This document shows positions 1-14,573 of a stretch of 14,573 nucleotides of DNA, in pieces. A model generated the notes under the pieces. That model did no database searches. It was not told where the DNA came from and saw nothing but the letters and a program-made list of their open reading frames with translations. Each line of letters starts with the position of its first letter. The first letter of the stretch is position 1. Source of the DNA: Pseudomonadota bacterium (GTDB lineage Bacteria > Desulfobacterota > Syntrophia > Syntrophales > JADFWA01); contig JAUWQS010000009.1 of NCBI GenBank assembly GCA_030610915.1, positions 1 to 14,573 of the forward strand, read 5' to 3'. The position numbers and the translations under genes were made by a program.

Positions 1-227
1 TTTTGCTTTTTCCCGAACTGGAAGAGGCTAAATTCGATAATGTAGCTTTGGTTGATATCCTTCACTACCTGATGGGTCTTGCCGAGGCAGGAGAAAACCT
101 GGTCCCGTGGTTAAACCAGTTCAAGCCTATTATCCCGAATATCCGGGCCTCATTCGAATACCTGCGGGACAGGAATCCAACATTCCAGGAACCTATCAAT
201 AAAGTGCTTGGCATAATTGAGGTTTGA
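1..227 (+). CDS. C-terminal fragment, possibly DUF1156-type DNA methylase
   Basis: The reading frame is open from the window edge (first full codon at position 3) to a TGA at 225-227, so this is the last 74 codons of a gene starting upstream. The TTG at position 3 is not a credible start. The tail is largely helical, with the stretch ALVDILHYLMGLAEAGENL. From memory, this resembles the 'LvDvLHr...LweeG' segment near the C-terminus of DUF1156 proteins, which are large adenine-specific DNA methylases found in defence islands. That match is a recollection, not a search, and no catalytic motif lies in the window. The next gene begins 1 bp after the stop, so this gene is probably the upstream member of the same operon. 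If it is a methylase it could mark self DNA for the cassette. Function otherwise unknown. Confidence 0.6.
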   Translation, partial: LLFPELEEAKFDNVALVDILHYLMGLAEAGENLVPWLNQFKPIIPNIRASFEYLRDRNPTFQEPINKVLGIIEV

Positions 228-228
228 G

Positions 229-657
229 ATGAGTGGATACGAAATCTTCGAACAACGATACCTGAATCTTTATAAAGAAGAGGGCATTGTGCCTTACGAT
301 ATCAAAATCGGGTTTCTCGATTTCCTCCGCGAGTTGAGTGCGGGAGCTGAAGGGATACCCAGACTTTCATCTTTTATGGTGGTAGGCATAGATGATGTTC
401 TTTATCTGGCAAAGCCGGATGAGAGACGCAATATTTCCCTTGCTATTCATAAAACCCTTCAATCCGCAGCAAATGACCTGGAGCGAAAGAGGATTGAGGT
501 TCAGATCGTCTGCAAGGGAAGACTTTTCAAAGCGGAATCTTTCTGGCTGGAGTATCGAGATGAAAAGCTCCCCGTTGATTTTGTCTTTGGCACACCTATC
601 AGGCGTGAAATTAGAGGGTTTCCTGTTTATACAACCAGTTTCAATTTGTCGAGTTGA
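229..657 (+). CDS. Unknown 142-aa protein in defence operon
   Basis: I do not recognise this family. ATG 229 is chosen over the upstream in-frame TTG at 217 because it follows the previous stop by 1 bp and has a GAGG about 6-9 bases upstream. The product is small and soluble-looking, with no signal peptide or membrane segment. A helical N-terminal half (YEIFEQRYLNLYKEEGIVPYD) is followed by mixed strand/helix and a basic, strand-rich C-terminus (VDFVFGTPIRREIRGFPVY). Its position between the possible methylase tail and the SIR2 gene suggests an accessory, adaptor or inhibitory role in the same system, but this is inference from context only. The 44-bp gap before the next gene is the widest in the operon apart from the one ahead of the helicase. 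Confidence 0.72.
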   Translation: MSGYEIFEQRYLNLYKEEGIVPYDIKIGFLDFLRELSAGAEGIPRLSSFMVVGIDDVLYLAKPDERRNISLAIHKTLQSAANDLERKRIEVQIVCKGRLFKAESFWLEYRDEKLPVDFVFGTPIRREIRGFPVYTTSFNLSS

Positions 658-670
658 TTGGCATAGCAAA

Positions 671-699
671 TTGACATCTAAGAATTGTGTAAGATCAAT
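671..699 (+). promoter_or_regulatory. Possible internal promoter before SIR2
   Basis: A perfect TTGACA (671-676) lies in the gap before the SIR2 gene. With a 17-bp spacer the -10 hexamer would be ATCAAT (694-699), a poor match to TATAAT, and transcription would start almost at the gene's ATG, giving a near-leaderless mRNA. It may allow separate expression of SIR2 onward. Weak candidate. Confidence 0.2.
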
Positions 700-701
700 T
701 T

Positions 702-1754
702 ATGGGATATTATATGGACAAAGATTCCATATATAAAATCTTTCAGGAAATATGCAGACAGGTGCCTGTTATCATTTTAGGTTCTGGACCATCATGTGCC
801 GCAGGAATTCCTGGTATGAGATCGCTTGCAGAACACTTGTTGGACAAATTTAGGAATGATATCAGTGATGACTGGAGAAAGATCGGTGATGACCTACGGA
901 AGAATATCGATTTAGAAACATCATTTAGCAGAACTCAGCCGGATGAGAAATTAAGTAAAGAGATTATTAAAACTGTGGGAGGCTATATTTCTGAAAAAGA
1001 TAGAGAGGTAAGGAACAGCTACTTCAATGGACAGATGACAATCCCTGTTGGACGGTTAATTAATTATTATCGATCGGAGATCTTGACTATTATAACGCCC
1101 AATTATGACTGTCTTGTTGAATATTGTTGTGACGAATTAAAAATGCATTGCAATACAGGTTTTGTTGGCTATTTCAGAAAGTCTCTCGATTTTGAAAAGG
1201 CGGAAAGAGAGGCGAAATATGTTGACAAGTCTGTTATTGTAAGAGGAAGACGAAGAGGAATTGAAAAAATCACGCCTCATGTAAAACTATTTAAGGTTCA
1301 TGGTTCTATTGATTGGTATGATTTTAATAATAGCACGGTTTCTGATATCTTCTTGATAGAGAGCGAAAAATACGAAGATAAAAGGCTAATTATTCTTCCT
1401 GGTGATAGAAAACATTCTAAGGCATTCCATGAGCCATATAGAGAACTAATACAAAAAGCTGATAATTCGCTCCGGTCTGGCAGGTCCTTTTTAATGATTG
1501 GATATGGTTTTAATGATGATCACCTCCAGGAAATATTAGTCAAAAGGCTCGTAGAGGATGAAACGCCTGGAATTATTATAACTAAGGAACTTTCGGAGAA
1601 AGCAAAGGAATTATTATCAAAATGTCCGAATTTGTGGGGTATCAGTCGGAAAAACAGTTCAACAGTTATTTGTAACAGAAAAAATGAATATGAGATACCA
1701 GATATTGAACTATGGAAAATAGATGAATTTATCAGGGTAATATTGGGAGGATAA
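702..1754 (+). CDS. SIR2-like NAD-binding defence protein
   Basis: This is a SIR2-family protein of the anti-phage kind, expected to bind and probably hydrolyse NAD+ when infection is sensed. Visible motifs: the nucleotide-binding loop GSGPSCAAGIP (residues 27-37); TPNYD (132-136), where N and D match the sirtuin active-site segment; VHGSIDW with the likely catalytic His200; and GYGFNDDH (267-274), typical of the SIR2_2-like C-terminal Rossmann half. There is no zinc-ribbon CxxC pair as in protein deacetylases, which fits an NADase better than a deacetylase. The gene is followed after 1 bp by a HerA ATPase gene, the arrangement of the known SIR2-HerA (Nezha-type) system, where HerA hexamers carry SIR2 subunits. 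Start is uncertain: ATG 702 has no Shine-Dalgarno, while ATG 714 has a GGGA about 6 bases upstream. The gene is visibly more AT-rich than its neighbours (for example 16 G/C in the 60 bases 1681-1740). Confidence 0.9.
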   Translation: MGYYMDKDSIYKIFQEICRQVPVIILGSGPSCAAGIPGMRSLAEHLLDKFRNDISDDWRKIGDDLRKNIDLETSFSRTQPDEKLSKEIIKTVGGYISEKDREVRNSYFNGQMTIPVGRLINYYRSEILTIITPNYDCLVEYCCDELKMHCNTGFVGYFRKSLDFEKAEREAKYVDKSVIVRGRRRGIEKITPHVKLFKVHGSIDWYDFNNSTVSDIFLIESEKYEDKRLIILPGDRKHSKAFHEPYRELIQKADNSLRSGRSFLMIGYGFNDDHLQEILVKRLVEDETPGIIITKELSEKAKELLSKCPNLWGISRKNSSTVICNRKNEYEIPDIELWKIDEFIRVILGG

Positions 1755-1755
1755 G

Positions 1756-3468
1756 ATGAGTATTTTTAATTTCAAAGAAGAAGATAACCTTGGCAATGTT
1801 ATTCAGGTTGATACAACCCGTGTATTTATCAGGGTTCCCTCTTCGGATAAACTTACTGAAGCAAAGTTGGGAAGATTGACAGCACTCAAGGGGCGGCCAG
1901 GCGAGTGGCTGATCGCTATGGTGGAAAGGGTGATACGGAAATTTTTTGAAGAAAAGCCAGCTGAAGAGGAGGAAAAAGATTCTGACGTGGTTGAGACCGA
2001 GGAAAATGTAGTCCACCTCATTTTGGTCGGCACATTGAGGGAAAAGGAGGGGGAAAGAAAAAACGTATTCACCCGATCGGTACTGTCTTTTCCCAATATC
2101 GATGCTCCATGTTATCCAATTGAAGGGAAAGAGTTAGAAGCTTTTATGGGTGTAATTTCATCTGTAGCCATACATGAGAATGCCTTAAATATCGGGACCT
2201 ATACACTGGATGAGAAAGCTGAAACATATCTGGATGGAAATAAATTTTTTCAGCGACATGCTGCCCTGCTCGGTAGCACCGGTTCAGGAAAATCATGGGC
2301 AGTCGCTTCTATTTTAGAGAAGGCTTCTAAACTGCCGTCTGCGAATATCATTCTCTTTGACCTTCATGGGGAATATTCCACTCTGGAATACGCAAAGCAT
2401 ATAAGAATAGCTGGCCCAAATGACCTTGAAAGCACAGGTGATGATATTTTGTTTTTGCCTTACTGGTTATTGAACTTTGAAGAGATGCAGGAGATGTTTA
2501 TTGATCGTAGTGAATTCAGCGCCCATAATCAGGTAATGGTATTTCAGGATGCGGTTTCAGGAGCCAAAAAACGTTCTTTAGAAAAAGAGGATAAAACAGA
2601 AATTTTAAAGTCCTTTACAATAGACAGCCCCATTCCCTTTTCTCTGAATGAAGTCATTCAGACAATAAAAGATTTAAATGAAGAAATGGAACAGGGCCAG
2701 CGTGCTTTGAAGCAAGGGAAATTCTTCGGACAGTTCAGCAGGCTTCTTGTAAGGTTGAATAGCAGAATCACCGACAAGAGATATGGCTTTATTTTCCAGG
2801 CACATGAAAAATATCATGCATATGAGGCCCTTCATGCTATTGCTAAAAATTTATTGGGCTTTGAAGATGTGGAAAAAGGAATCAAAGTGATAGATTTTTC
2901 AGAAGTCCCATCAGATATTCTGCCGGTTATTGTCGGGCTAGTTGCCAGGATTATCTATCAAACTCAATTCTGGATGGCTGCTGAAAAGAGGCAGCCAATC
3001 GCATTTGTCTGTGATGAGGCTCACAGGTACCTCCCACGGGATCAGAATGTTAATCCCTTTGAAAGAAGGGCATTGATAAATTTCGAAAGGATTGCCAAAG
3101 AAGGACGTAAATATGGTGTTGCTTTACTGATTGTCAGCCAGCGTCCGTCAGAAGTCAGCACTACTATTTTAACCCAGTGCAATAACTTCATAGCACTCAG
3201 GTTAACAAATTCCGAAGACCAGGGAGTTGTTAAGCGACTTATGCCTGACAGTATGGGCGCACTGATGGATATTTTACCAATGCTGGATGTTGGCGAAGCT
3301 GTGGTAGTAGGCGATGCAGTGCTGCTTCCAACAAGGGTGAAGTTACATGAGCCTACATATAAACCGACAAGCGCAACCATTGATTTCTGGGATGAATGGA
3401 ATAAAAAAGATGCTCAAAGTGAAATTGTAAAGGCTGTAGAAAATATGAGAAGGCAAAGCAGGAACTAA
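1756..3468 (+). CDS. herA: HerA/FtsK-type hexameric ATPase
   Basis: This is a HerA-family P-loop ATPase, a ring-forming DNA translocase. The N-terminal ~100 residues (LGNVIQVDTTRVFIRVP...) look like a HAS-barrel. Walker A is GSTGSGKS (173-180), Walker B is FVCDEAH (417-423), and the following FERIAKEGRKYGVALLIVSQRPSEV and the 'GEAVVVGDAV' C-terminal strand are signatures of HerA. The 570-aa length is normal. A strong GGGAGG just before ATG 1756 supports the start, and the SIR2 stop is 1 bp upstream. In SIR2-HerA systems HerA assembles with SIR2 and is needed for its NADase activity; in other contexts HerA pairs with the NurA nuclease, which is absent here. The partner by context is therefore SIR2, and possibly the ATPase that follows after 3 bp. 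The family is clear; the role in this enlarged operon is inferred. Confidence 0.93.
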   Translation: MSIFNFKEEDNLGNVIQVDTTRVFIRVPSSDKLTEAKLGRLTALKGRPGEWLIAMVERVIRKFFEEKPAEEEEKDSDVVETEENVVHLILVGTLREKEGERKNVFTRSVLSFPNIDAPCYPIEGKELEAFMGVISSVAIHENALNIGTYTLDEKAETYLDGNKFFQRHAALLGSTGSGKSWAVASILEKASKLPSANIILFDLHGEYSTLEYAKHIRIAGPNDLESTGDDILFLPYWLLNFEEMQEMFIDRSEFSAHNQVMVFQDAVSGAKKRSLEKEDKTEILKSFTIDSPIPFSLNEVIQTIKDLNEEMEQGQRALKQGKFFGQFSRLLVRLNSRITDKRYGFIFQAHEKYHAYEALHAIAKNLLGFEDVEKGIKVIDFSEVPSDILPVIVGLVARIIYQTQFWMAAEKRQPIAFVCDEAHRYLPRDQNVNPFERRALINFERIAKEGRKYGVALLIVSQRPSEVSTTILTQCNNFIALRLTNSEDQGVVKRLMPDSMGALMDILPMLDVGEAVVVGDAVLLPTRVKLHEPTYKPTSATIDFWDEWNKKDAQSEIVKAVENMRRQSRN

Positions 3469-3471
3469 AAA

Positions 3472-5310
3472 ATGCAAGTCAATAAAAGGGGAATGACAAT
3501 AGATCTGGGCTATCCGCTTTCAGAAACAGAAATGGAAGATATGTTTGTTGATTTGTTTCCAGAGCTTAGAGGCAGGTGTCTGGAATGGCTTAAAGATGAA
3601 AAGAACATACTGCCAATGATGCTTGCGGGTCAGATCGGCACCGGAAAAACAACATTGATCAATCAGTTATTCCTGGAATCGGGAATTGAGCCAGACCTTC
3701 GACTATCTTTTGACAAAGATGATTTCGATATCAGTATTGGTGGATTCTTAGGTTATGTTTTCTTCCAAACCTTAAAGGCACTTCAAAATTTAAAGGTCGA
3801 TGTTCGGAAATGGGGCGATGATTTTTCAAAGGCCACAGGCATGTCGTTAGACAAAACCATTACCGTTTTTTTCTTCCAAGAACCTGACGCCCAAGCCAGC
3901 ATCATGCGCAAAATCGTTCTGAATCTTTTTGAAGACCAAGAAGATAATTACAAGGTTCAATTAGCTGAAATGCTCGAAATATTGTCCGATACGCTTGGAC
4001 GGCCTCCCCTGATTTTTTGTGAAGGAATAGATAAATATCAATTCTCAGGTGTAAAGATTCGTTTGTTGTCACCAATCCTTTCCGTTCTTTCTAAATCACC
4101 AGGGAAATTGATGTGTGAGCTTAACTTGGTTTGTACCATAAATCTTGATTTCGAATGGCAAAGACAAGACTCCTTAATTGCGATCCTTACATCTTCAGAT
4201 GAGACTGAAATAAGAGAATTGCTTCAAAGAAGGACGGGTATATATTCAAATTACAGGGAGTCAATATTTCCAATTTTGGCAAAACTTTCCGGTGGAAACC
4301 CAAGGCAGGCAGTAAGGTTACAGGCTGAATTTGAATATGCTTATGAAAAACTCAAGAAACCAAAAGATGAAGCTATCAGCTATGCATGTGATAGAGTAAG
4401 GAATGATTTTCTAAGGAGCGGTGAGGTTGCTTTTTCATTGGAGCATTTGAAAACAGTGAAGAGAGATGGCTTTTTGATTCCGTCTGAGGAATCGGAAACA
4501 CCGTTACACTGGAATTGGATTTTAGCTACTGCCGAACCCTCGATTGGGAGAATACCAGTAAAGATTAACCCGCTACTGCTCCCTGCGCTTGAATCATTTG
4601 AGGGTCTAATCCCTGAAGACCCAGAGGTTGAAAAGTTAAAACTCTGGGCACAGGAACATGATACCAGTCCTTTTGGATTGACAATTCCGCAGGACATGAA
4701 AATTGAAGGTTTTATTGATGAGATGAATAAATCTGGATTGATGGAGCCAGCACTATCCCTTGAAAAAATATTTAACGAGCTTGCCTCATTTTTCTTGAGT
4801 CAACGATTTAATTCCCTTTATCTCATCCTTTACCAGGACCTGGAAGTTGCCCGGCTTGCCTCGGATTATATCTGCGGAAAGGCAGGCGTTCTGGCGGAGA
4901 AATGGTTTTTTGATGGAATTATTGACAAAAATGTTGAAAGTTTCAACCAGTTTTTTAAGTTTTTGGAAAAGCATGACGGCCTGTCTTTATTTTATGATGA
5001 ATCGCTTAAACCAAAAGATGTGGAATGGTGTGAAACCAAAAGAGATCAGCTCATTGAAAAAAGAATCATTTTTTGGGCAAAAAAAGACAAAGGGCTTTCT
5101 TATTTAAATGTGTGGCCCCATTTAAGGCAGTTTCTTAGGATTCTTGAGCTTGAAAAAGAGATATGGAGAGATATTTCACAGGAAGATATTGAAGAAGATT
5201 TGAAATTGTTAGAAGAGGCAACCATTCCCGATGAAAATAAGAAAGAAGTTAAGGAAAAATTAGAAAAGGTTCTGCTTTCGCTTAAGAAGGGGTTGGAAAA
5301 CAATGCGTGA
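3472..5310 (+). CDS. AAA/STAND-like P-loop ATPase, defence-associated
   Basis: A 612-aa protein with an N-terminal P-loop ATPase domain (about residues 40-300) and a ~300-residue C-terminal region I cannot assign. Walker A is GQIGTGKTT (53-61). The Walker B region reads LIFCEGIDK (180-188), so Glu184 replaces the usual Asp of 'hhhDGLDK'. The segment LSGGNPRQAVRL (GGNPRQ at 274-279) resembles the sensor-2/GxPR motif of Orc1/Cdc6- and STAND-type ATPases, which bind DNA or act as switch-like sensors. The C-terminus is charged and probably coiled (DIEEDLKLLEEAT...). ATG 3472 follows the HerA stop by 3 bp with an AGCAGG upstream; ATG 3493 is a less likely alternative. The next gene overlaps its end by 8 bp, so the two are probably translationally coupled. 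A phage-sensing or complex-remodelling role is inference. Confidence 0.82.
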   Translation: MQVNKRGMTIDLGYPLSETEMEDMFVDLFPELRGRCLEWLKDEKNILPMMLAGQIGTGKTTLINQLFLESGIEPDLRLSFDKDDFDISIGGFLGYVFFQTLKALQNLKVDVRKWGDDFSKATGMSLDKTITVFFFQEPDAQASIMRKIVLNLFEDQEDNYKVQLAEMLEILSDTLGRPPLIFCEGIDKYQFSGVKIRLLSPILSVLSKSPGKLMCELNLVCTINLDFEWQRQDSLIAILTSSDETEIRELLQRRTGIYSNYRESIFPILAKLSGGNPRQAVRLQAEFEYAYEKLKKPKDEAISYACDRVRNDFLRSGEVAFSLEHLKTVKRDGFLIPSEESETPLHWNWILATAEPSIGRIPVKINPLLLPALESFEGLIPEDPEVEKLKLWAQEHDTSPFGLTIPQDMKIEGFIDEMNKSGLMEPALSLEKIFNELASFFLSQRFNSLYLILYQDLEVARLASDYICGKAGVLAEKWFFDGIIDKNVESFNQFFKFLEKHDGLSLFYDESLKPKDVEWCETKRDQLIEKRIIFWAKKDKGLSYLNVWPHLRQFLRILELEKEIWRDISQEDIEEDLKLLEEATIPDENKKEVKEKLEKVLLSLKKGLENNA

Positions 5311-5965
5311 TTTATGGAACTGGGTCGAGGCTAAAGCATTTAATCCAAGAACCACAAAAGATAAATTGACATGGTTGCGTTGCTTTCATCAATTTGTTCA
5401 GAAAATATGGGGAACAGAACGTGATTGGAGTAAACCAATAAAATCCGGGAAGCTTTGGTGTTCAGATAAAATACACGATGGGCAAGAATTCAAATTGGAA
5501 ACCCTCTCTTTGAAACCATTAAAAGATAGTGAGATCGGATTTTTTTACTGCATTGACAGAGTGGACAATGAATTTTCTGTGCGGTTGTTCTATAAAAGAG
5601 GTTGCTTCCAAATAGACTATACTGAGGATTATCTCTATGAATTTACGAATGATCCCAGTCCTGATATTGATGTTGATGAAATTACAAGCGATGATTTAAA
5701 GGAGGTTATAAAGAAAAGGATATATCATCCGGCATTACATACCCATCTCAAAAAAGAAGATGGGGGAGATTACTATCATCATCTGCGATTCGGATTTGCA
5801 ACAAACAACCCATTTGTCATTCTCTACCAAGTAGCTTTTCAGATAATTGACTATCGAAATACAGAAAGCGGAATGAGGGAAAATGAAATATTGCGATTAA
5901 CAGAAATATTACACTCAAACAAGGATAAATCTGAAATAAGTGCGGGCATTTTATTCCCCAACTAA
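5303..5965 (+). CDS. Unknown 220-aa protein coupled to the ATPase
   Basis: I do not recognise this family. The ATG at 5303 lies inside the last codons of the preceding ATPase gene (8-bp overlap), which argues for coupled translation and a physical partnership with it. The protein is soluble and aromatic-rich (MRDLWNWVEAKAF, DKLTWLRCFHQFVQKIW), with an acidic loop in the middle (NDPSPDIDVDEITSDD, about residues 113-128) and a His/Tyr cluster HPALHTHL...DYYHHLRFGFA that could bind metal or nucleic acid, though no known catalytic pattern is evident. No signal peptide or membrane helix is seen. It could be a specificity or adaptor subunit for the ATPase or helicase; that is guesswork from position. 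The 68-bp gap that follows has no clear Shine-Dalgarno or promoter. Confidence 0.72.
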   Translation: MRDLWNWVEAKAFNPRTTKDKLTWLRCFHQFVQKIWGTERDWSKPIKSGKLWCSDKIHDGQEFKLETLSLKPLKDSEIGFFYCIDRVDNEFSVRLFYKRGCFQIDYTEDYLYEFTNDPSPDIDVDEITSDDLKEVIKKRIYHPALHTHLKKEDGGDYYHHLRFGFATNNPFVILYQVAFQIIDYRNTESGMRENEILRLTEILHSNKDKSEISAGILFPN

Positions 5966-6033
5966 ACCTATTCATCTCAAGAACATTATGATTTCAGATT
6001 CCTTTCATAATATCGATACATGCTACGTATAGA

Positions 6034-8826
6034 ATGGAAATTAAAAAAGATACAAAAGTAAAGGTTCCATATCGCCCTGAACTTGGTACTGGCAAGGTGC
6101 TCCAGGTGGCGGAAGCTCCGGAAGGCGAATACCAGGTTGATGTGGTTTTTGAAAAAGATGGCAAGAGGTTTTTGGAAACCTTTCCCCAGAGTCGCCTTGA
6201 GGCGGTCGCTGATATTTTTCAGCGGTATCAAAACGGTGAGTCTGATCATCCAACAGACTTTTTCCTAAGACAATTAGCCTATCAACTGCCCCTTGAAAAT
6301 TTAGGGGGCGAACTTACCAATAGCAGAACAGATCTTCTTCCCCACCAGATTCTCTTAACCCATCAGATTGTCAGCGCCCGCAGGCGAAGATTTTTGATTG
6401 CTGATGAGGTTGGTCTGGGAAAGACTATTGAAGTGGGAATGATGATCAAAGAGCTGATTTCACGAGGAGAAGCTAAAAGAATATTAATTATTTGTCCTGC
6501 AGGCCTCACGGTAAACTGGCAGAACGAAATGAAAGATTGCTTCCGGGTGTTTTTTGATATCCTGGGCCGTGACTTTTCCGATGCCAATCCTCATGTATGG
6601 GAGCGACATAGTCTAATAATTGCTTCCATAGATACGATCAAAAAGCCCAAGCGCCTGGAAAAAATAATGGCTGGGCCGGATTGGGACTTGATTGTTTTTG
6701 ATGAAGCTCACCACCTGAGCAGGAAGAGATATGGCAAAAAGATCGATTCCACCCAGAATTACCGATTGGGTGAGAAGGCAAAGGGGAAAACCCGGGATTT
6801 TCTGTTCCTTACCGCTACCCCTCATCAAGGGAATGCCTATCAATTCTGGTCTTTGATTCAGCTCTTAGACGATCAGCTTTTTGAAGAACCGGAGGCAATG
6901 CTGGATCATAGAGGTCTCCTTGGAAGAGTCATGTTCCGGCGCACAAAAAAGGAAGTTACAGATGCGCATGGTAATCCGATTTTTATGCGGCGTCAGGTAC
7001 ACACTCAAAAATTCCAACTCTCCGTGCGGGAACAGAGGTTCTACGACAGGCTGACTGAATATCTGAAAGAAGGATATAATGCTGCCGGCGTTGGGCAGGA
7101 CAAAACTACCAGGCAGCAGCGGGCTGTTGGTTTTGTCATGGCCACATTTCAAAAGATAATGTCATCGAGTCCAAGAGCCATTAAACAGGCCCTCAGACGT
7201 CGATTGATCGCTCTTTACGCCCGGAAACAAATGGCCATGGAAAGTGGCATCCACGGGGCCATAACAAGGCCGGAAATCTCATCCAGGATCATGAATTATC
7301 AGGAACAAATGCGAAGCGTAGTTTCTGACTTACTATCCTATGGCAAGGATAAAATTGACTATACGGAAGCAGATTCATACATTGTTAGCCTCAAACAACG
7401 GTTAAAGAAAAGACCTCACTTTGAGGAAGAAGTAACTCACTGGGCATTGGATGTCATGGAATCCGGCAACGAGGTTATTGAAGCCGAAGCTAATATCCCG
7501 AATGAGGAAGAAAAGATAAAAGAATTGATAAACCTGGTAGATGACAGCCCAGACCGCAAGTTTGATACCTTGATTCGTGCCATTGAACAGATCAGAAGAG
7601 AAAACAGGAATGAGAAGATGATCATCTTTACTCAATACCTGGAAACCCTGTATTTTCTGCAAGATGAAATAGGCAAATATTATGATCCCAAGAAGATAGC
7701 AATCGTCAAAGGAGGGCCATTAGAAGATAAAATCGCATCTTGCGAATCATTCTGGGAGGAAAACGGCGCCCAGTTTCTCATTTCCACCTCCGCGGGCGGA
7801 GAAGGGATTAACCTTCAGGTTTGTCGGATTCTGTTCAACTACGATCTGCCGTGGAATCCCATGGCTGTGGAGCAGCGCATTGGCAGAATTCATAGATATG
7901 GCCAGACCGAAACCGTTCAAATTTATCATTTGGTGGCCGAGGAAACGATAGAAGAAAAAGTTTACGCAATGCTTGAAAGAAAGCTCCTTGAAATAGCCAT
8001 GACTATCGGCAAGGTGGACCAGGTGACAGGTGAGGTAAGTGAAGATTTCCGGTCAGAAGTGCTTGGGTATTTGGGTTCGGGCACAAATTACACCTCTCTC
8101 TACAGGGAGGCTCTCCTCAATCGAAACTACGAAAGAACGGAACAGGAAATTGCCGAGGCCATAGAGAACGCTAAGGATGCAAGTGAGGCGTTGCGTCAAC
8201 TAACACAGGATCTTTCGACATTTAATCTGGAATATTACAGAGAGCTCGAAGGGAAATTTACACTGGAAGACTTGAGATGTTTTACAGAAAAAGGGATTCT
8301 TCGCCTGGGTGGAAGTTTTATTCCATCTGGTGATCTTGTCGATATCACGGTGCCCCCTGTGCTGAAGAAATATCCGAATGTAGCATCTCGTTATGAAAAC
8401 GTCACCTTTTCCCGGAAAACAGCTACCCGGAAGAAAAACGTCGATTTACTGGGGATAGGTCATCCGCTCATAGATGCGTTAATAAGCTATTATAAGAGCG
8501 AATTCGTATCTGGCGAGCTATTAAACGTAAAATGTGATGACAGCCCATCCTGTCTGACGGCTCGATGTCTTTTTACAATTGAATTTGATGATGGAACCAG
8601 GCGTGAACTTTATGAAAATTTTCTAATTGATGGAGAAGAAGTATTGGGGGATTTGGATTTTCTGTGCCGCAATGACTTTAAAGAAATGGAATCGGCAAAA
8701 CCTGCATCTTTTATGACAGATAAATTGAAGATGTTCACCCAAAATCAGGAAGCGAAGATCCGTTCAAATTACGATGGGGTTATCAACATCCGACAGAGGT
8801 GTGTTGGTATTCAGGGTGTGCATTGA
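6034..8826 (+). CDS. SNF2/RapA-type helicase, DrmD-like
   Basis: A 930-aa superfamily 2 SNF2-type ATPase that should translocate on double-stranded DNA. The N-terminus (residues ~1-60, TKVKVPYRPELGTGKVLQV...) looks like the Tudor/SH3-like fold of RapA. Motifs in order: I DEVGLGKT (124-131), II DEAHH (223-227), III LTATPHQG (around 260-263), then the C-terminal helicase lobe with IIFTQYLETLYFLQ, AGGEGINLQ (587-595) and QRIGRIHRYGQ (614-624). Residues ~320-480 form a helical insertion and ~660-930 a C-terminal region without a domain I recognise. This layout resembles DrmD, the SNF2-like helicase of class 1 DISARM, and RapA itself, but no DrmA, DrmB or DrmC gene is in the window. ATG 6034 lacks a good Shine-Dalgarno; no better in-frame start lies just upstream. 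It is the last gene of the operon and probably powers DNA sensing, loading or strand remodelling. Confidence 0.88.
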   Translation: MEIKKDTKVKVPYRPELGTGKVLQVAEAPEGEYQVDVVFEKDGKRFLETFPQSRLEAVADIFQRYQNGESDHPTDFFLRQLAYQLPLENLGGELTNSRTDLLPHQILLTHQIVSARRRRFLIADEVGLGKTIEVGMMIKELISRGEAKRILIICPAGLTVNWQNEMKDCFRVFFDILGRDFSDANPHVWERHSLIIASIDTIKKPKRLEKIMAGPDWDLIVFDEAHHLSRKRYGKKIDSTQNYRLGEKAKGKTRDFLFLTATPHQGNAYQFWSLIQLLDDQLFEEPEAMLDHRGLLGRVMFRRTKKEVTDAHGNPIFMRRQVHTQKFQLSVREQRFYDRLTEYLKEGYNAAGVGQDKTTRQQRAVGFVMATFQKIMSSSPRAIKQALRRRLIALYARKQMAMESGIHGAITRPEISSRIMNYQEQMRSVVSDLLSYGKDKIDYTEADSYIVSLKQRLKKRPHFEEEVTHWALDVMESGNEVIEAEANIPNEEEKIKELINLVDDSPDRKFDTLIRAIEQIRRENRNEKMIIFTQYLETLYFLQDEIGKYYDPKKIAIVKGGPLEDKIASCESFWEENGAQFLISTSAGGEGINLQVCRILFNYDLPWNPMAVEQRIGRIHRYGQTETVQIYHLVAEETIEEKVYAMLERKLLEIAMTIGKVDQVTGEVSEDFRSEVLGYLGSGTNYTSLYREALLNRNYERTEQEIAEAIENAKDASEALRQLTQDLSTFNLEYYRELEGKFTLEDLRCFTEKGILRLGGSFIPSGDLVDITVPPVLKKYPNVASRYENVTFSRKTATRKKNVDLLGIGHPLIDALISYYKSEFVSGELLNVKCDDSPSCLTARCLFTIEFDDGTRRELYENFLIDGEEVLGDLDFLCRNDFKEMESAKPASFMTDKLKMFTQNQEAKIRSNYDGVINIRQRCVGIQGVH

Positions 8827-9103: not shown

Positions 9104-9287
9104 GTAACTACTTACGTAGTTAGGCTGAAGGTATTTAGGCTGAAGGCTGAAGGTACTCGAAAAACACGATTGCCGCACTTTGGCAGAGAAACAGCAGATT
9201 TTTGCATCAAACATGGCTTCAAAGTGTGCCGTATTCCCGCTTTTACTAACAGTTTTCAGCCTTCAGTCTATCTACCTGAGTAGTTAC
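9104..9287. repeat. ~184-bp hairpin element next to cobB (MITE-like)
   Basis: The outer arms GTAACTACT (9104-9112) and AGTAGTTAC (9279-9287) are exact reverse complements. Similarity continues inward as GTAG-TTAGGCTGAAGG against the complement of the right side. An inner arm CTGAAGGCTGAA (9140-9151) pairs perfectly with TTCAGCCTTCAG (9255-9266), and CACTTTG (9176-9182) pairs with CAAAGTG (9220-9226). The left side carries TTAGGCTGAAGG twice (9120-9131 and 9135-9146). Nothing in it codes for a plausible protein, so it is probably a non-autonomous palindromic element, and its RNA could act as a bidirectional terminator. The right arm includes the cobB stop codon (9284-9286). Confidence 0.65.
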
Positions 9288-10696
9288 TTTTTCCCCAGCG
9301 TTGCACAACTTATTTCATAACAGGCCCTAACAAAATTTTCAGCAACCTGTGGGTTGCTGCCGAAGTGAAGGTGAACGTAGCTTCCAAGGACATTCTTTTT
9401 CATATACCCCTCTTCCCGAATTTTTAATCCTGGTCTGTCACTAAGCTTATAAGCAAGGGTTACACCGTTGTGATCCACGACGGGGGCAATCTTTCCGGGT
9501 AGTTCCTTAATTTCTGAATAGTGGAATTCATGTCCTCTTATTTGCTCACCAGGTTTTCCGAGAAGATTGGATCTCTTCAGGGTAACCTCCCTATAGCCGA
9601 GTGCTTTCAATCGACCAAGCATCATAATCCTTACAGGAAATATTCCCGCCATTGGATAGAAGTGGAGTAATGTATCCTCGACACCTTCGGTTAAATACAT
9701 AAAACCTCCGCATTCGGCATAGACGGGGAAACCGCTGTTACCCAGTTGTTTAATCTCTTCCATGAGACTCTTATTCCTTGAGAGTTTTTCCGCAAAGAGT
9801 TCCGGATATCCTCCTCCAAGATAGAGACCATCAATATCCGGTGGTAGAGAGCGATCGTGCAGGGGTGAAAAAAAGACTAACTCCGCCCCATATTCTTCAA
9901 GAAAATCAAGGTTGTCCTGATAGTAGAAGCAGAATGCTTCGTCTTTTGCAACACCGATCCTGATGGAGGTTTTTTGATGGAGTTCCTGTTTCTGAGGAAA
10001 TTTCGGAATATCAAGCTCAGGAAGGTTGTCTATCAACATGTCCAAATTCAATGAACCTTCGATCGAGTCGGCCAGGTGGTCAATGTAGTCCGGTCCCAGA
10101 GGATTCTCATCCTGAGTAACAAGACCGAGGTGCCTCTCCGGTAAATTCAGACTGCTCTCCCTTTTAATACCGCCAAGTAGTGAGATATTCACGTGACCTT
10201 CAAGGGCTTCACGGATAAATTGAAGATGAACATCACTTCCAAGGCGATTTAATACAACTCCCGCCCATTTCAATTCACTGTCGAAGTTTTCAAAACCCTG
10301 TATCAGGGCTGCAGCGCTTCGAGCCATACTCCTGGCATCCACAATCAGGAAAACGGGGAGCGACAGCCACTTGGCCATTTCTGCCGTGGAGCCGGCTTCC
10401 GATCTGCCGTCGTATCCGTCAAAGAGACCCATTACACCCTCTACAATAGCCACATCGCAGGAATGACTGCCTTTGAAAAAGACTCTCCTGTTGTATTCTT
10501 TTGAGAGCATCCAGCCATCGAGATTTCGAGATGGACAATCACAGATCTGTTTATGGAATCCGGGGTCGATGAAGTCCGGTCCCACCTTAAATGGGGCAAC
10601 CTTCATTCCCCGTCTCTTGAGGGCGGCCATGAGTCCTAGAGCTATCGTGGTTTTACCACAGCCACTGTGTGTGCCCGCAACGACCAGTCCTTTCAT
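9284..10696 (-). CDS. cbiA: Cobyrinate a,c-diamide synthase
   Basis: Catalyses ATP- and glutamine-dependent amidation of the a and c carboxylates of the corrin ring (cobyrinate in the anaerobic pathway, hydrogenobyrinate in the aerobic one; also called CobB). It is a cytoplasmic fusion of a dethiobiotin-synthetase-like ATPase and a class I glutamine amidotransferase. Visible: P-loop GTHSGCGKTT (8-17), KVGPDFIDPGFH, EGVMGLFDG, the linker DGLYLGGGYPELFA, the nucleophile Cys329 in YAECGGFMYL, RGHEFHYS around 388-395, and the catalytic-type His442 in GSYVHLHF. The 470-aa length is normal. ATG at 10696 overlaps the cobQ stop as ATGA, so the two are translationally coupled with cobQ upstream. The stop codon lies inside the terminal repeat of the 9104-9287 element, so the last residues (LGKK) may be element-derived. 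Confidence 0.96.
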   Translation of the reverse strand: MKGLVVAGTHSGCGKTTIALGLMAALKRRGMKVAPFKVGPDFIDPGFHKQICDCPSRNLDGWMLSKEYNRRVFFKGSHSCDVAIVEGVMGLFDGYDGRSEAGSTAEMAKWLSLPVFLIVDARSMARSAAALIQGFENFDSELKWAGVVLNRLGSDVHLQFIREALEGHVNISLLGGIKRESSLNLPERHLGLVTQDENPLGPDYIDHLADSIEGSLNLDMLIDNLPELDIPKFPQKQELHQKTSIRIGVAKDEAFCFYYQDNLDFLEEYGAELVFFSPLHDRSLPPDIDGLYLGGGYPELFAEKLSRNKSLMEEIKQLGNSGFPVYAECGGFMYLTEGVEDTLLHFYPMAGIFPVRIMMLGRLKALGYREVTLKRSNLLGKPGEQIRGHEFHYSEIKELPGKIAPVVDHNGVTLAYKLSDRPGLKIREEGYMKKNVLGSYVHLHFGSNPQVAENFVRACYEISCATLGKK

Positions 10697-12216
10697 CTCA
10701 GCCCCGCGATCCTGTAAAAAAATTCCATATCGATATTTCTTCTGACAAGCTCTGCGAGACTGTCATATTGTGTCTCTTTAAATTCCTGAAAGCTGAAAGA
10801 TGGATATGTCTCCGAAGATACAGACATGCCTTTTATCAGCTTTACTTGCCTGATGAAATCCTGACGGAAACCGTCATTGTCGAAAATGCCATGGATATAT
10901 GTACCCCAGACCCTTCCATCTTCGGATATGAATCCATCGGGAGTGGAAGTTTGTTCTTCTTCTCTTTGATTAATTTCAAACATATATTTTTCGTCCTGTA
11001 ATTCTGTTCTTCCCATGTGTATTTCATAACCCTTCAGTTCACCTGTATTTTTGAAAATCCGGTTCGATGGATGGATCTTTGCGCTGACCTGACACGTCAC
11101 TTTTTCTTTTTCTATAAGTGTTCTTATTGGTAAAAGGCCGATGCCGTTTATATTCTCGACAGAGGTTTCAATATGGTAAGGATCTGCGATATGTTCCCCA
11201 AGCATCTGATAACCTCCACAAATTCCAATAACCGATCCGCCGTTCCTGTGATGTTCTAATATCTCCCGGACACGGCCGCTATTATGCAGATAATTAAGGT
11301 CATCAATGGTGTTTTTGCTCCCCGGTATGATAACAACATCTGCATCGTCGATTTTCTCACCATAATTCACATACCTGAGGTTAATATCGGGTTCTCTGTC
11401 AAAGGGATCAAAATCCGTAAAATTGGAGATATGAGGAAGATAAATAACGGAAATATCAACCTTTCCATCCCCCCCAGAAGGCATGTTTCTCTCCAGAGAT
11501 ACGCTGTCTTCCTCCGGAATATAAATATCCTTAAAATAAGGTATGGTTCCCATTACGGGGATTCCCGTCTTTTCCTCAAGAAAATCGAGTCCCGGTTTTA
11601 ATAGTGAGATATCACCGCGAAACTTGTTGATGATGAAACCCTTGATTCTCTGCCTTTCATCTTTTGTAAGCAGCTCGATAGTGCCGACAAGCGAGGCAAA
11701 CACCCCGCCCCTGTCTATGTCTCCTGCCAGTATAACCGGGCAATCTGCAATTTCGGCCATACCCATGTTGACGATGTCATTTTCCCGCAGATTTATCTCC
11801 GCGGGAGATCCTGCCCCCTCTATCACTATAAAATCATATTTTTGGGAGAGCCTTTGGAAACTCTGTCTGACAAACACGATAGCCTTCCTTTTAAATTCAT
11901 GATACAGGTTCGCAGACATGTTTTGATAAACCCTGCCATGAATTATAATCTGGGCTCCAACGTCGGTATTTGGTTTTATCAGTACAGGATTCATATCCCA
12001 ATGTGGCTCCAGGTCAGCCGCCTCCGCCTGCACGACCTGAGCCCTTCCCATCTCTCCGCCGTCCCTTGTGATGAAAGAGTTGAGTGCCATATTCTGTGCC
12101 TTGAAAGGCGCAACGTTATAGCCATCCTGTCTGAGTATCCGGCAGAAAGCGGCAACTAAAATACTCTTTCCCACATGTGATGCTGTTCCCTGAACCATCA
12201 AAGATCTACACTTCAT
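10693..12216 (-). CDS. cobQ: Cobyric acid synthase
   Basis: Amidates the b, d, e and g carboxylates of adenosylcobyrinate a,c-diamide to give adenosylcobyric acid, using glutamine and ATP (CbiP in the anaerobic pathway). The 507-aa length is usual. Motifs: P-loop VQGTASHVGKS (8-18), FKAQNMALNS, the ATPase-domain EGAGSPAEINL and GDIDRGGVFA, VIIPGSKNTIDDL at the amidotransferase boundary, nucleophile Cys333 in GICGGYQMLG, and His442 in WGTYIHGIFDNDGF. I chose ATG 12216 because AAGAGG lies 6 bases upstream and MKCRSLMVQGTASHVGKS is the normal family N-terminus. The frame stays open to an ATG at 12288, but those extra 24 residues are unlike the family. It is the first gene of a cobQ-cobB operon; no cobalt chelation, adenosylation or nucleotide-loop gene lies in the window. 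Confidence 0.96.
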   Translation of the reverse strand: MKCRSLMVQGTASHVGKSILVAAFCRILRQDGYNVAPFKAQNMALNSFITRDGGEMGRAQVVQAEAADLEPHWDMNPVLIKPNTDVGAQIIIHGRVYQNMSANLYHEFKRKAIVFVRQSFQRLSQKYDFIVIEGAGSPAEINLRENDIVNMGMAEIADCPVILAGDIDRGGVFASLVGTIELLTKDERQRIKGFIINKFRGDISLLKPGLDFLEEKTGIPVMGTIPYFKDIYIPEEDSVSLERNMPSGGDGKVDISVIYLPHISNFTDFDPFDREPDINLRYVNYGEKIDDADVVIIPGSKNTIDDLNYLHNSGRVREILEHHRNGGSVIGICGGYQMLGEHIADPYHIETSVENINGIGLLPIRTLIEKEKVTCQVSAKIHPSNRIFKNTGELKGYEIHMGRTELQDEKYMFEINQREEEQTSTPDGFISEDGRVWGTYIHGIFDNDGFRQDFIRQVKLIKGMSVSSETYPSFSFQEFKETQYDSLAELVRRNIDMEFFYRIAGLR

Positions 12217-12222
12217 AAAAAA

Positions 12223-12228
12223 CCTCTT
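12223..12228 (-). promoter_or_regulatory. Ribosome binding site of cobQ
   Basis: On the minus strand AAGAGG is followed by six bases and then ATG 12216. It decides the start against the longer frame from 12288. Confidence 0.6.
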
Positions 12229-12278
12229 GGGTGAAAAAACGTAATAGTTCAATAAATAGGGGAAATCCAGACACGTAG

Positions 12279-12301
12279 CCGCCTCCATCTTCTGGAAGCG
12301 G
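12279..12301 (-). promoter_or_regulatory. Hairpin in the cobQ leader
   Basis: A 9-bp stem with one mismatch (CCGCCTCCA at 12279-12287 with TGGAAGCGG at 12293-12301) closes a 5-base loop, 63 bp upstream of the cobQ start. No T-run follows. It may be a leader-RNA structure, but I see no cobalamin-riboswitch B12 box (GCCACTG) near it. Function unknown. Confidence 0.3.
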
Positions 12302-12433: not shown

Positions 12434-13450
12434 ATGGCACGCCCCATTCGCATAGAATACCCCGGCGCCTGGTATCATGTCACCTGCCGGGGGAATGAAC
12501 GGAAAGCCATCTTTCGCGATGACCGCGACCGGTATGCCTTTCTTGATATCCTCGCCACAAGCCTGAAAACCTTCAAAGTATCCCTTCATGGCTACGTACT
12601 CATGGACAATCACTTTCACCTCATCATCGAGACCCATGAGGCCAATCTCGGCAAACTGATGCAACGATTCAATACGGCCTATACTGTGTACTATAACCAT
12701 CGGCATAGTCGAGACGGCCACCTTTACCAGGGGCGCTACAAAGCCATTCTCATCGATGCCGACGAATATCTTGTGGAACTGAGTCGATACGTTCACCTCA
12801 ACCCGGTTCGAATTAAGAGATACTCAGGCGTTTCAATCAAAGAAAAGGAAGCGATGATGGAAGCCTACCGGTGGAGCAGCTACCGCGGCTACATACGTCT
12901 TCGTGAGCGACAGCCCTTCGTGGTCTATGATACGATCCTCACAATGGCAGGAGGCCGTGACCCGCTGAAAGCCCCTCGATACTACAAACGATTCGTTCTA
13001 TCCGGCATTACTGACGACATGAGCGAGACCTATTGGGGCGATATCAAATGGCAGTTCCTGAAAGGAACGGAAGCTTTTGCCGGGCAGATCTACGGAACAT
13101 TCATGAACAGTCAGGGAACGACACCATCGCCATCGGGCACGGCATACCCCCCACACCGAGCAATCACCATAAACGAGATCGCGGGACATGTTGCAACAGT
13201 CTGCAATGTTGAGAAAGATGAGCTCTATCGCAAGCGAAGTAGCTCAGCGGCAGCGCGATCCCTCTTTATGGAGTTCTGCTGTCAGTATATGAACTCGCAG
13301 ATGAGTTTAACAGACATAGGTCGGACACTTGGAGATGTGAGCGTTGCCGCACTGAGCCATAATAGACGACGCTTGAGTGATCGGAAGGGGGAAAACAAGG
13401 CAGTGCAGCAATTGTATGAAGAAATCAAGAAAAGATTAGAGCAGGCTTAG
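12434..13450 (+). CDS. REP-associated tyrosine (Y1) transposase with DnaA-C-like tail
   Basis: A single-strand HUH transposase of the IS200-related RAYT family, expected to nick and rejoin REP sequences. The N-terminus MARPIRIEYPGAWYHVTCRGN is the family hallmark and fixes the start. The metal-binding HUH motif is HFH (60-62) in MDNHFHLII, and the probable nucleophile is Tyr119 in SRYVHLNPVR; YNHRHSRDGHLYQGRYKA (87-104) is also typical. Residues ~244-335 form an extra domain with SLTDIGRTLGDVSVAALSHN (291-310), resembling the helix-turn-helix of the DnaA C-terminal domain, known in some longer RAYTs and probably DNA-binding. The frame appears intact with all catalytic residues. Its TAG stop (13448-13450) lies inside the right terminal repeat. 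Confidence 0.93.
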   Translation: MARPIRIEYPGAWYHVTCRGNERKAIFRDDRDRYAFLDILATSLKTFKVSLHGYVLMDNHFHLIIETHEANLGKLMQRFNTAYTVYYNHRHSRDGHLYQGRYKAILIDADEYLVELSRYVHLNPVRIKRYSGVSIKEKEAMMEAYRWSSYRGYIRLRERQPFVVYDTILTMAGGRDPLKAPRYYKRFVLSGITDDMSETYWGDIKWQFLKGTEAFAGQIYGTFMNSQGTTPSPSGTAYPPHRAITINEIAGHVATVCNVEKDELYRKRSSSAAARSLFMEFCCQYMNSQMSLTDIGRTLGDVSVAALSHNRRRLSDRKGENKAVQQLYEEIKKRLEQA

Positions 13451-13481: not shown

Positions 13482-14573
13482 ATGATAGACAAGGCAAAGA
13501 CTATTCTCGGGGATGTGTTCGGATATAGTGAATTCAGGCCTCATCAGCTAAAAATCATAGAAAATGTTCTCAAGAAAAGAGACACGCTGGTTATCATGCC
13601 TACCGGCGGGGGAAAATCGCTCTGTTATCAAATTCCCGCCCTTATTTTTAAGGGTTTGACCGTTGTTGTTTCACCTCTGATTTCGCTGATGAAGGATCAG
13701 GTAGAGCAATTAACTGAACTTGCTGTCCCGGCTGTGTTCCTGAACAGCTCATTGTCCAACGAAGAATATAACAGTAATGTGGAGCGTCTGAAAAAAAACA
13801 GGGTCAAACTGCTTTACCTCGCCCCGGAGGCCCTTCTGACACCGAGGATACTATCGCTGCTTTCCTCGCTTCAGGTTGATTGTGTGGCAATAGATGAGGC
13901 ACATTGTATATCGGAGTGGGGACACGATTTCCGGCCGGAATACAGGCAGATTGTTGAAGTCAGATCTCATTTCCCCTCAGCCACATATATCGCCCTTACG
14001 GCGACGGCAACGCCGAGGGTTCAGGAAGATATAAAACGCAATCTTAAATTTGACGTCTCAAACGAATTTATTGCCGGCTTTAACAGGGAAAACCTGTTCA
14101 TTCAGGTCATTCCAAAAAACAATCCGGTCTCACAGATCATAGAATTTTTAGAGAAATATCCGGACCAGTCGGGTATCATTTACTGCTTTTCCCGCAGGCA
14201 GGTGGACGATCTTTATGAGATATTGAAAAGCAGGGGGTATTCCATCAGGCCCTATCATGCCGGGTTATCGGATGCAGAGCGAACACGAAACCAGGAATTG
14301 TTTATCAGAGATGATGTGCAGATTATTGTAGCCACAATCGCCTTCGGAATGGGAATCAACAAACCCAATGTCCGCTTCGTTATCCATTTTGATCTTCCTA
14401 AGAATATTGAGACCTACTATCAGGAAATTGGTCGGGCCGGACGCGATGGCCTGAGTGCCCATTGTTTGTTATTGTTCGGCTACGGAGATATTCGGAAAAT
14501 CAGATATTTCATAGATCAGAAAGACGAAAATGAACAGCGAATTGCCAATATCCATCTCAATGCCCTGTTGCAA
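13482..14573 (+). CDS. recQ: ATP-dependent DNA helicase RecQ (3' end outside window)
   Basis: The first 364 codons of a RecQ-family 3'-5' DNA helicase used in recombinational repair and replication restart; the gene is cut by the window end. Motifs: FGYSEFRPHQ (13-22, motif 0), I TGGGKS (41-46), Ia SPLISLMKDQ, II DEAH (138-141) followed by CISEWGHDFRPEY (the RecQ aromatic-rich loop), III LTATATPRV, IV IIYCFSRRQVDDL, V ATIAFGMGINKPNVR and VI QEIGRAGRDGLSAHC. The RQC zinc-binding and HRDC regions would lie beyond the window. ATG 13482 gives the usual short lead before motif 0, but there is no Shine-Dalgarno: the 9 bases upstream are ATTTACATT, and before them is the RAYT end. Transcription may read through from the transposase gene, or the insertion may have weakened expression. 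Confidence 0.93.
   Translation, partial: MIDKAKTILGDVFGYSEFRPHQLKIIENVLKKRDTLVIMPTGGGKSLCYQIPALIFKGLTVVVSPLISLMKDQVEQLTELAVPAVFLNSSLSNEEYNSNVERLKKNRVKLLYLAPEALLTPRILSLLSSLQVDCVAIDEAHCISEWGHDFRPEYRQIVEVRSHFPSATYIALTATATPRVQEDIKRNLKFDVSNEFIAGFNRENLFIQVIPKNNPVSQIIEFLEKYPDQSGIIYCFSRRQVDDLYEILKSRGYSIRPYHAGLSDAERTRNQELFIRDDVQIIVATIAFGMGINKPNVRFVIHFDLPKNIETYYQEIGRAGRDGLSAHCLLLFGYGDIRKIRYFIDQKDENEQRIANIHLNALLQ

Follow-up and report, generated by a model that had tools for sequence, protein, structure and literature searches.

The DNA considered here (the window, 14,573 nucleotides at its full length) comes from contig JAUWQS010000009.1 of a Pseudomonadota bacterium (assembly GCA_030610915.1) and carries a predicted defence operon of seven genes. 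Those encoding a SIR2-like protein, a HerA-type translocase and two further proteins, called here ATP4 and P5, lie between the genes of what resembles another defence system, which ends with a SNF2 helicase gene. An initial annotation, made from the letters of this DNA, had described all seven as one functional unit. The seven open reading frames (ORFs) are all co-oriented on the forward strand, and their order is the one first described. The genes, and the borders of the slot that holds the four inner ones, are as follows:

3..227, +, 3' end of a DUF1156-type methylase gene (74 residues), cut by the window edge; outer system.
229..657, +, DUF8076 (PF26277) protein, 142 aa from its ATG, recognized by Pfam; outer core, candidate iSTAND.
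658..701, no strand, 5' boundary of the cargo slot with its leader, 44 bp, judged by leader similarity versus shuffles.
702..1754, +, SIR2-like predicted NADase, 350 aa (PADLOC, PDB match, motifs).
1756..3468, +, HerA-type translocase, 570 aa (PADLOC, PDB match, Walker A and B).
3472..5310, +, ATP4, AAA-type ATPase of the four-gene cargo, 612 aa, with GQIGTGKT and GGNPR, also found behind HerA elsewhere.
5303..5965, +, P5 of the four-gene cargo, 220 aa, with HPxxHxH, also found behind ATP4 in loci L085, L087 and L091.
5966..6033, no strand, 3' boundary of this slot, 68 bp, judged by spacing.
6034..8826, +, 930-aa SNF2 helicase belonging to the outer system (Pfam).

The spacing of these genes shows a seam between the inner module and the outer genes. 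The tight packing initially reported holds within SIR2-HerA-ATP4-P5, where the spacings are 1, 3 and -8 bp, and between the methylase and DUF8076 genes (1 bp); it does not hold at the borders of the module, which are wider (44 bp between DUF8076 and SIR2, 68 bp between P5 and SNF2). The GC content at third codon positions (GC3) divides along the same seam: it is 0.52 for the methylase end, 0.43 for DUF8076 and 0.45 for SNF2, and 0.32, 0.39, 0.38 and 0.34 for SIR2, HerA, ATP4 and P5, respectively.

The initial identification of SIR2 and HerA is secure. The SIR2 protein matches the PADLOC SIR2 model (297 bits), Pfam SIR2_2 and PDB entry 8yhx (E 5e-15), and its catalytic positions, aligned with the SIR2 chains of the PDB, are N134 in TPNYD and H200 in KVHGSIDW. 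The HerA protein matches the PADLOC HerA model (787 bits), Pfam DUF87 and PDB entry 9c1m (E 3e-81), and has both Walker motifs. ATP4 was rightly called a P-loop ATPase: its sequence includes a Walker A motif, the stretch IFCEGIDK and GGNPR, its AAA matches being weak and below the curated Pfam cut-offs, and some of the nine members of its family give weak AAA_16 or ATPase_2 matches. In P5, residues H142, P143, H146, H148, H159 and R162 are invariant in four sequences, and no Pfam match was obtained for the four members. In PADLOC-DB 2.0, which extends to PDC and HEC models of candidates identified through embedding (PMC12988326), nothing matches P5, and ATP4 is matched weakly over the P-loop only; compared with the PDB, both proteins gave only P-loop-level or chance matches. 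As the PADLOC copy used has no model for ATP4 or P5, tools of this kind would probably report only SIR2-HerA at such loci.

The inner genes recur together outside the window. HerA was searched in 379 genomes from the order of G005 (the genome of locus L005, a Desulfobacteraceae record); 15 of them have a match at E 1e-60 or better, and the loci of the best eight by E-value were examined. Five (L069, L085, L086, L087, L091) encode a HerA 53-59% identical to that of the window, followed in all five by an ATP4 24-29% identical to the window protein. P5 (23-25% identical) lies behind ATP4 in L085, L087 and L091, i.e., in all three loci whose contigs continue. SIR2 precedes HerA in four of the five (L069, L085, L086, L087), the gap being 1 or 2 bp there as in the window. 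In L091 (positions 1452-7116), HerA-ATP4-P5 is preceded instead of SIR2 by a PDC-S02 protein that also matches a PD-(D/E)XK model, a gene order which suggests that the effector of the module may be swapped. The three other loci (L088, L089, L090; HerA about 47% identical) hold SIR2-HerA only, without ATP4 or P5. No gene of the outer core was matched (E 1e-3) in the stretches of 4-16 kb surveyed at the five loci with ATP4.

Cluster data also connect HerA with ATP4. Eight of 30 HerA clusters (at least 70% identity) have a longest contig of exactly the same size as one of 30 ATP4 clusters, compared with none of the 90 more distant HerA clusters listed, and one HerA/ATP4 pair bears the consecutive tags ES703_42948 and 42949. 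Because SIR2-HerA-ATP4(-P5) recurs without the outer core and these clusters link HerA to ATP4, the best reading is that the four genes SIR2-HerA-ATP4-P5 make up a module in their own right. ATP4 was not found in the plasmids and viral contigs searched, nor in genome searches (0/15 and 0/395), all of which could miss relatives at 24-29% identity such as those that surfaced only through HerA. A further search of 395 genomes gave matches of 19-22 bits in five, which lay in the P-loop region and were not taken as kin.

The outer genes likewise recur without the inner ones. An alignment search with DUF8076 in species-representative genomes led to 15 first-fetched loci. DUF8076 is matched in all of them (partially in L015) and SNF2 in 14 (as fragments only in L015; L003 stops short of SNF2), and none has SIR2, HerA, ATP4 or P5 at E 1e-3. 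This absence of the cargo, together with the occurrence of SIR2-HerA-ATP4(-P5) elsewhere without the outer core, speaks against one unit of seven genes; the initial annotation had itself taken a lack of co-occurrence between the flanking genes and SIR2-HerA to count against such a unit. Its broader point stands: SIR2-HerA is enclosed in a more extensive defence operon that also has a DUF1156 methylase. The first gene, for which a DUF1156 methylase had been suggested as a possibility, can indeed be assigned to this type from its relatives: its 74 residues are matched by tblastn at 68-89% in 13 of the 15 loci, and the complete relative in L005 matches Pfam DUF1156 and N6_N4_Mtase as well as PADLOC HmaB (139.6 bits) and PglXI (110.3 bits).

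In the relatives, the core genes encode, in order, an ATPase (about 886 aa), a PglZ-like protein (about 326 aa), the methylase, DUF8076 and SNF2. The core is complete in L005, L007, L010, L011, L012 and L013, the ATPase of L010 being split into two ORFs. The ATPase of L005 matches the PADLOC models DUF499 (48.7 bits) and HmaC (32.5 bits), and a Klebsiella protein with the annotation DUF499 shares 23% identity with the core ATPase (E 7e-21). No profile match relates ATP4 to the core ATPase, and this kinship was rejected. The PglZ-like protein is short and standalone in the relatives. That of L005 matches PADLOC PglZ models at E 2e-5, that of L012 matches PF08665 at E 0.007, under the cut-off, and a comparison with the PglZ profile by hhalign gave 94.7% and E 6e-8 over 40 columns only. 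Its residues D95, T130, D231, H232 and H307 are invariant and presumably have a ligand role. The initial statement that no pglZ is present is right within the window; the relatives have a PglZ-like gene upstream, beyond the window's reach.

PF26277 is matched by all of the best 120 of 211 DUF8076 homologues. The DUF8076 gene sits 1 bp behind the methylase gene in most relatives as in the window, and its place and size fit iSTAND, for which it is a candidate only. The SNF2 identity is secure by Pfam (SNF2 and Helicase_C, with no nuclease domain found by Pfam) and PADLOC. The label DrmD-like given initially was not borne out: HmaA (356.5 bits, the best) and BrxHI (340.5 bits) outscore DrmD (307.3 bits). 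In the relatives, SNF2 lies behind DUF8076 at 54-86% in the main segments. DUF8076 is matched in nine of 395 genomes of one phylum sample and in 14 of 389 genomes of one order sample, some of these matches being weak fragments (in the order sample, weak matches lie at L047, L048, L049, L051, L052 and L053) and both samples including genomes already in hand. It was not found in the plasmids, viral contigs and phages searched.

Several observations concern the outer operon more loosely. In L015 and L059, DUF8076 lies next to a degenerate SNF2 gene, as in decaying copies of the operon. L033 (7891-12748) has a sister architecture, in which a distant DUF8076-like gene lies between a DUF1156-like methylase gene and a different, helicase-like ORF of 531 aa. 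On a Halorubrum plasmid, L095 (4626-12100) is annotated with DUF499, a hypothetical protein, a DNA methyltransferase, a 133-aa hypothetical protein and a DNA adenine methylase, with no SNF2 listed, and is perhaps another variant of the outer operon. In L001, the operon is on a 3-kb contig labelled Methanococcoides, corresponding either to a transfer to an archaeon or to a binning error.

The interval between DUF8076 and SNF2 is an exchangeable cargo slot. Both genes are visible in 24 loci, window included. This set contains L015 (empty) and L059 (filled) despite their degenerate SNF2, and lies apart from L056 and L060, which are without SNF2, and L003, whose contig stops in the slot. The interval exceeds 300 bp in 12 of the 24 and is at most 99 bp in the 12 others, L005 being measured to its intact SNF2 gene and not to a remnant of an SNF2 start at 13 bp. 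By comparison, more than 300 bp separate the methylase from DUF8076 in one of 20 loci (L014) and the ATPase from the PglZ-like gene in none of nine. Between the PglZ-like and methylase genes, such a distance occurs in five of 10 loci, which defines a second slot; it contains a Fic gene in L010, a DUF3800 gene in L011 and, in L007, a gene of the same cluster as that of L010.

The contents of the slot between DUF8076 and SNF2 are diverse. The place taken in the window by SIR2-HerA-ATP4-P5 is held by a Lamassu-like three-gene set with a PIN toxin in L013, a CI-like repressor with a type IIG restriction-modification (RM) system in L005, a DUF4365 protein with a DUF433/DUF5615 pair in L004, this pair alone in L009 (assigned by cluster) and a TumE-type pair in L001, L002 and L057 (L001 by cluster, L057 by likeness to L002). 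In L007 (10424-11534, by cluster) and L010 (10424-11203), it is held by a Y1 transposase gene surrounded by tandem GC-rich repeats, which we take to be reminiscent of REP elements. L054 has AAA_21 together with a sub-threshold DUF4276, and the content of L059 is unclassified. Furthermore, a GmrSD-N protein lies behind DUF8076 in L003, up to the contig end.

These exchanges occur between close relatives. The SNF2 tree places the window in a clade of eight rows (support 100/100, branching within it being partly weak), and the seven other helicases are 80-86% identical to that of the window. The clade comprises six cargo kinds and one empty slot: the window module, the type IIG RM, the TumE pair (twice), the DUF433/DUF5615 pair, DUF4365 with that pair, the Lamassu-like set and the empty state. 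The roughly 50-bp leader that follows DUF8076 is similar between the window and both L003 and L056 (0/500 shuffles each); the likeness is weaker with L013 (21/500) and unclear with L004 (59/500) and L002 (379/500). In L005 (10443-10538), some 25 residues from the start of SNF2 are duplicated behind DUF8076, ahead of the type IIG RM cargo and the whole SNF2 gene; this copy is likely the scar of one insertion.

A related embedding is found on Klebsiella plasmids. The annotated order on pKP0155-2 is helix-turn-helix, DUF499, a 339-aa protein, SIR2, HerA, DUF1156, a 166-aa protein and SNF2. Four proteins of this operon (ATPase, PglZ-like, methylase and SNF2) share 23-39% BLAST identity with the core associated with DUF8076, and the 166-aa protein has no significant match to DUF8076. 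Here, a two-gene SIR2-HerA occupies the slot between the PglZ-like and methylase genes, not the one between DUF8076 and SNF2. At 99% identity or more, the methylase is matched in 34 plasmid records, 11 of them among those listed, and 10 of these 11 plasmids are also among the 30 HerA rows listed, the HerA match lying 25 bp from the methylase match. On a Candidatus Tenderia plasmid (methylase 62.8%), both slots are closed, as judged by the position of mostly unnamed genes. No match to the Klebsiella methylase was found in the E. coli genomes searched. In a HerA tree that left out the near-duplicates P0230 and P0258 and three rows with wrong-frame letters, grouping of the window HerA with the Klebsiella HerA was rejected (p-AU 0.0004, a value to be read with the long branches in mind and obtained in a test chosen once a first tree had been seen). 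The Klebsiella-group operon thus probably acquired SIR2-HerA separately.

Taken together, we consider, with a probability of about 0.85, that the window contains two nested systems, i.e., a four-gene predicted NADase module held in an exchangeable slot of an operon resembling the DUF499-centred, Hma-like Type-3 BREX-Related (BR) systems. Several points weigh against this interpretation. The exact arrangement of the window occurs in no other fetched locus, and of the best 120 DUF8076 clusters, a single one (10,664 bp) matches an ATP4 cluster in longest-contig size and none matches close HerA. The identity of the ATP4 and P5 relatives is low. The core ATPase matches DUF499 only weakly, the PglZ resemblance is weak or short (the L005 protein has no Pfam match), and the iSTAND and PglZ assignments depend on position and motifs. 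GC3 may vary inside a single operon. Promoter- and terminator-like sites are at chance level, and, given co-orientation and small gaps, there may be a shared promoter, which would couple the two modules in practice; a separate promoter for the cargo was searched for and rejected (20 sites versus 19.7 expected by chance).

Gene order, the separate recurrence of both modules and the exchange of cargo are observations, whereas all activities and the division of labour between the two nested systems are inferred, those of the outer operon from its published family. Most likely, the outer operon would methylate self DNA and restrict unmodified DNA, with PglZ as the nuclease and the SNF2 protein as the motor, and SIR2 and HerA would form the known complex that hydrolyses NAD+ upon infection. 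ATP4 would probably gate SIR2-HerA as a sensor or loader, P5 probably being an accessory and perhaps metal-binding partner. Restriction would then be the first line of defence and an NAD-depleting abortive response the second. More tentatively, the cargo may be a distinct NADase defence system of four components, in which ATP4 is the dedicated sensor and P5 represents a new protein family. Its embedding in BR operons would then be functional, the slot allowing a restriction system to carry an interchangeable suicide response as a back-up, released once restriction is blocked.

It could also be proposed that HerA, having an ORC/Cdc6-type partner in ATP4, draws invader DNA towards a nuclease, SIR2 being incidental. 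The coupling of HerA with ATPases of the ORC/Cdc6 type has been described (PMC10853773), and the protein before HerA-ATP4-P5 in L091 matches PDC-S02 and PD-(D/E)XK models. However, SIR2 lies 1 or 2 bp before HerA in the window and in four loci, the window SIR2 keeps its catalytic asparagine and histidine, and an ORC/Cdc6-type ATP4 is a guess from motifs, its PDB matches being at P-loop level; capture of this kind thus appears unlikely.

We find it rather improbable that the seven genes form one composite machine, in which DNA would be sensed or marked by a BR core that directly licenses the NADase activity of SIR2-HerA. Such integration would agree with co-oriented genes separated by at most 68 bp and with the Klebsiella-group plasmids, where SIR2-HerA again lies within a BR-like operon. 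Nevertheless, each module is found without the other, the closest helicase relatives have other cargo or none, and the Klebsiella case involves another slot, a two-gene SIR2-HerA and a HerA whose joint grouping was rejected, with the caveats given above. Finally, a passive cargo that inserted into a defence hotspot and persisted there by chance, having no function at present, would fit the decay seen near the slot elsewhere (degenerate SNF2 in L015 and L059, SNF2-start remnant in L005) and the transposase gene in two of 12 filled slots (L007, L010), but it is very improbable, the module ORFs of the window being all intact with catalytic motifs and most of the close HerA and ATP4 relatives listed being full length.

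On the 3' side of the defence operon, the window carries two neighbouring CbiA/CobQ-type cobalamin-synthesis genes (9284-12288, -), a Y1 transposase gene whose product has a weak C-terminal match to a DnaA-like helix-turn-helix (12434-13450, +) and the start of a helicase gene, which we take to be RecQ-like, running off the window end (13482-14573, +).

Each parent system and the principle of embedding are already known; what is new is the four-gene variant of SIR2-HerA and the slot between DUF8076 and SNF2. Among titles and abstracts, with preprints and most subscription journals outside reach, no literature was found on ATP4 or P5 with SIR2-HerA or on this slot. The presumed seven-gene system becomes a testable case of modular immunity, with one operon and one slot that shows six cargo kinds and an empty state among eight helicases, and further unknown defence genes may be sought in this slot.

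Several known systems can be compared with the window. As initially stated, no DISARM set is seen: drmB and drmC are not among the matches listed for the six window proteins (25 of 57 for SNF2, 25 of 28 for SIR2, complete for the rest). A DrmA-labelled model (214.5 bits) does match the SNF2 protein, as do several DrmD models, but all score below HmaA, and the protein reaches 351.7 of the 610 bits needed for NCBIfam DrmD; a DISARM assignment was rejected. BREX is characterized by BrxC, a full-length PglZ and BrxA/BrxB; the PglZ-like protein of the relatives is short and standalone. BREX-Related Capture (BRC) and HerA/FtsK-ORC capture systems resemble the window by a HerA beside an AAA-type ATPase and BREX-like genes, but Pfam, run on six window proteins, gave no match to GNAT, TGT or DUF4007, and the effector here is SIR2.

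The inner module is close to SIR2-HerA (Nezha), which depletes NAD+ and requires the SIR2 active-site residues and HerA (PMC11559045). The two window genes are adjacent (1 bp), have the expected motifs and PADLOC matches, and their SIR2 has N134 and H200 as putative catalytic residues, as the Vibrio cholerae protein has N168 and H227 (PMC11559045). The make-up differs from two genes by ATP4, present in the window and five loci, and by P5, present in the window and three.

The outer core fits in outline Type-3 BR, described by Rakesh and Krishnan 2026 (PMC12839542) as having a DUF499 ATPase, a methylase, a nuclease-free SNF2 helicase and a standalone PglZ, with an iSTAND protein in 82% of its members. 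In the relatives of the window, a small fifth gene accompanies those for an ATPase, a methylase, a nuclease-free SNF2 and a standalone PglZ-like protein, the PglZ and DUF499 matches being weak and the iSTAND a candidate. In the window itself, the last 74 residues of the methylase, with the full L005 relative, point to the BrxXI/HmaB kind, and the SNF2 gene (6034-8826) encodes no predicted nuclease fusion. The difference is that the window has the 3' part only, with a four-gene SIR2 module inside, and that SIR2 and NADase are absent from the main text of PMC12839542. As to whether the full set matches a named system, which the initial annotation had taken to count against its reading, this holds in part, in that the outer genes resemble Type-3 BR.

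Nesting of one system between the genes of another is known from TgvAB, embedded in a type I RM system (PMC11411939), from DarTG2, between hsdS and hsdR of a type I RM system (PMC12255303), and from the candidates embedded in Hma that were found by guilt-by-embedding (Payne 2024, as cited in PMC11411939, PMC12255303 and PMC12988326). The window would extend these cases by its host, which resembles Type-3 BR, by its slot between DUF8076 and SNF2 and by a predicted NADase module as cargo.

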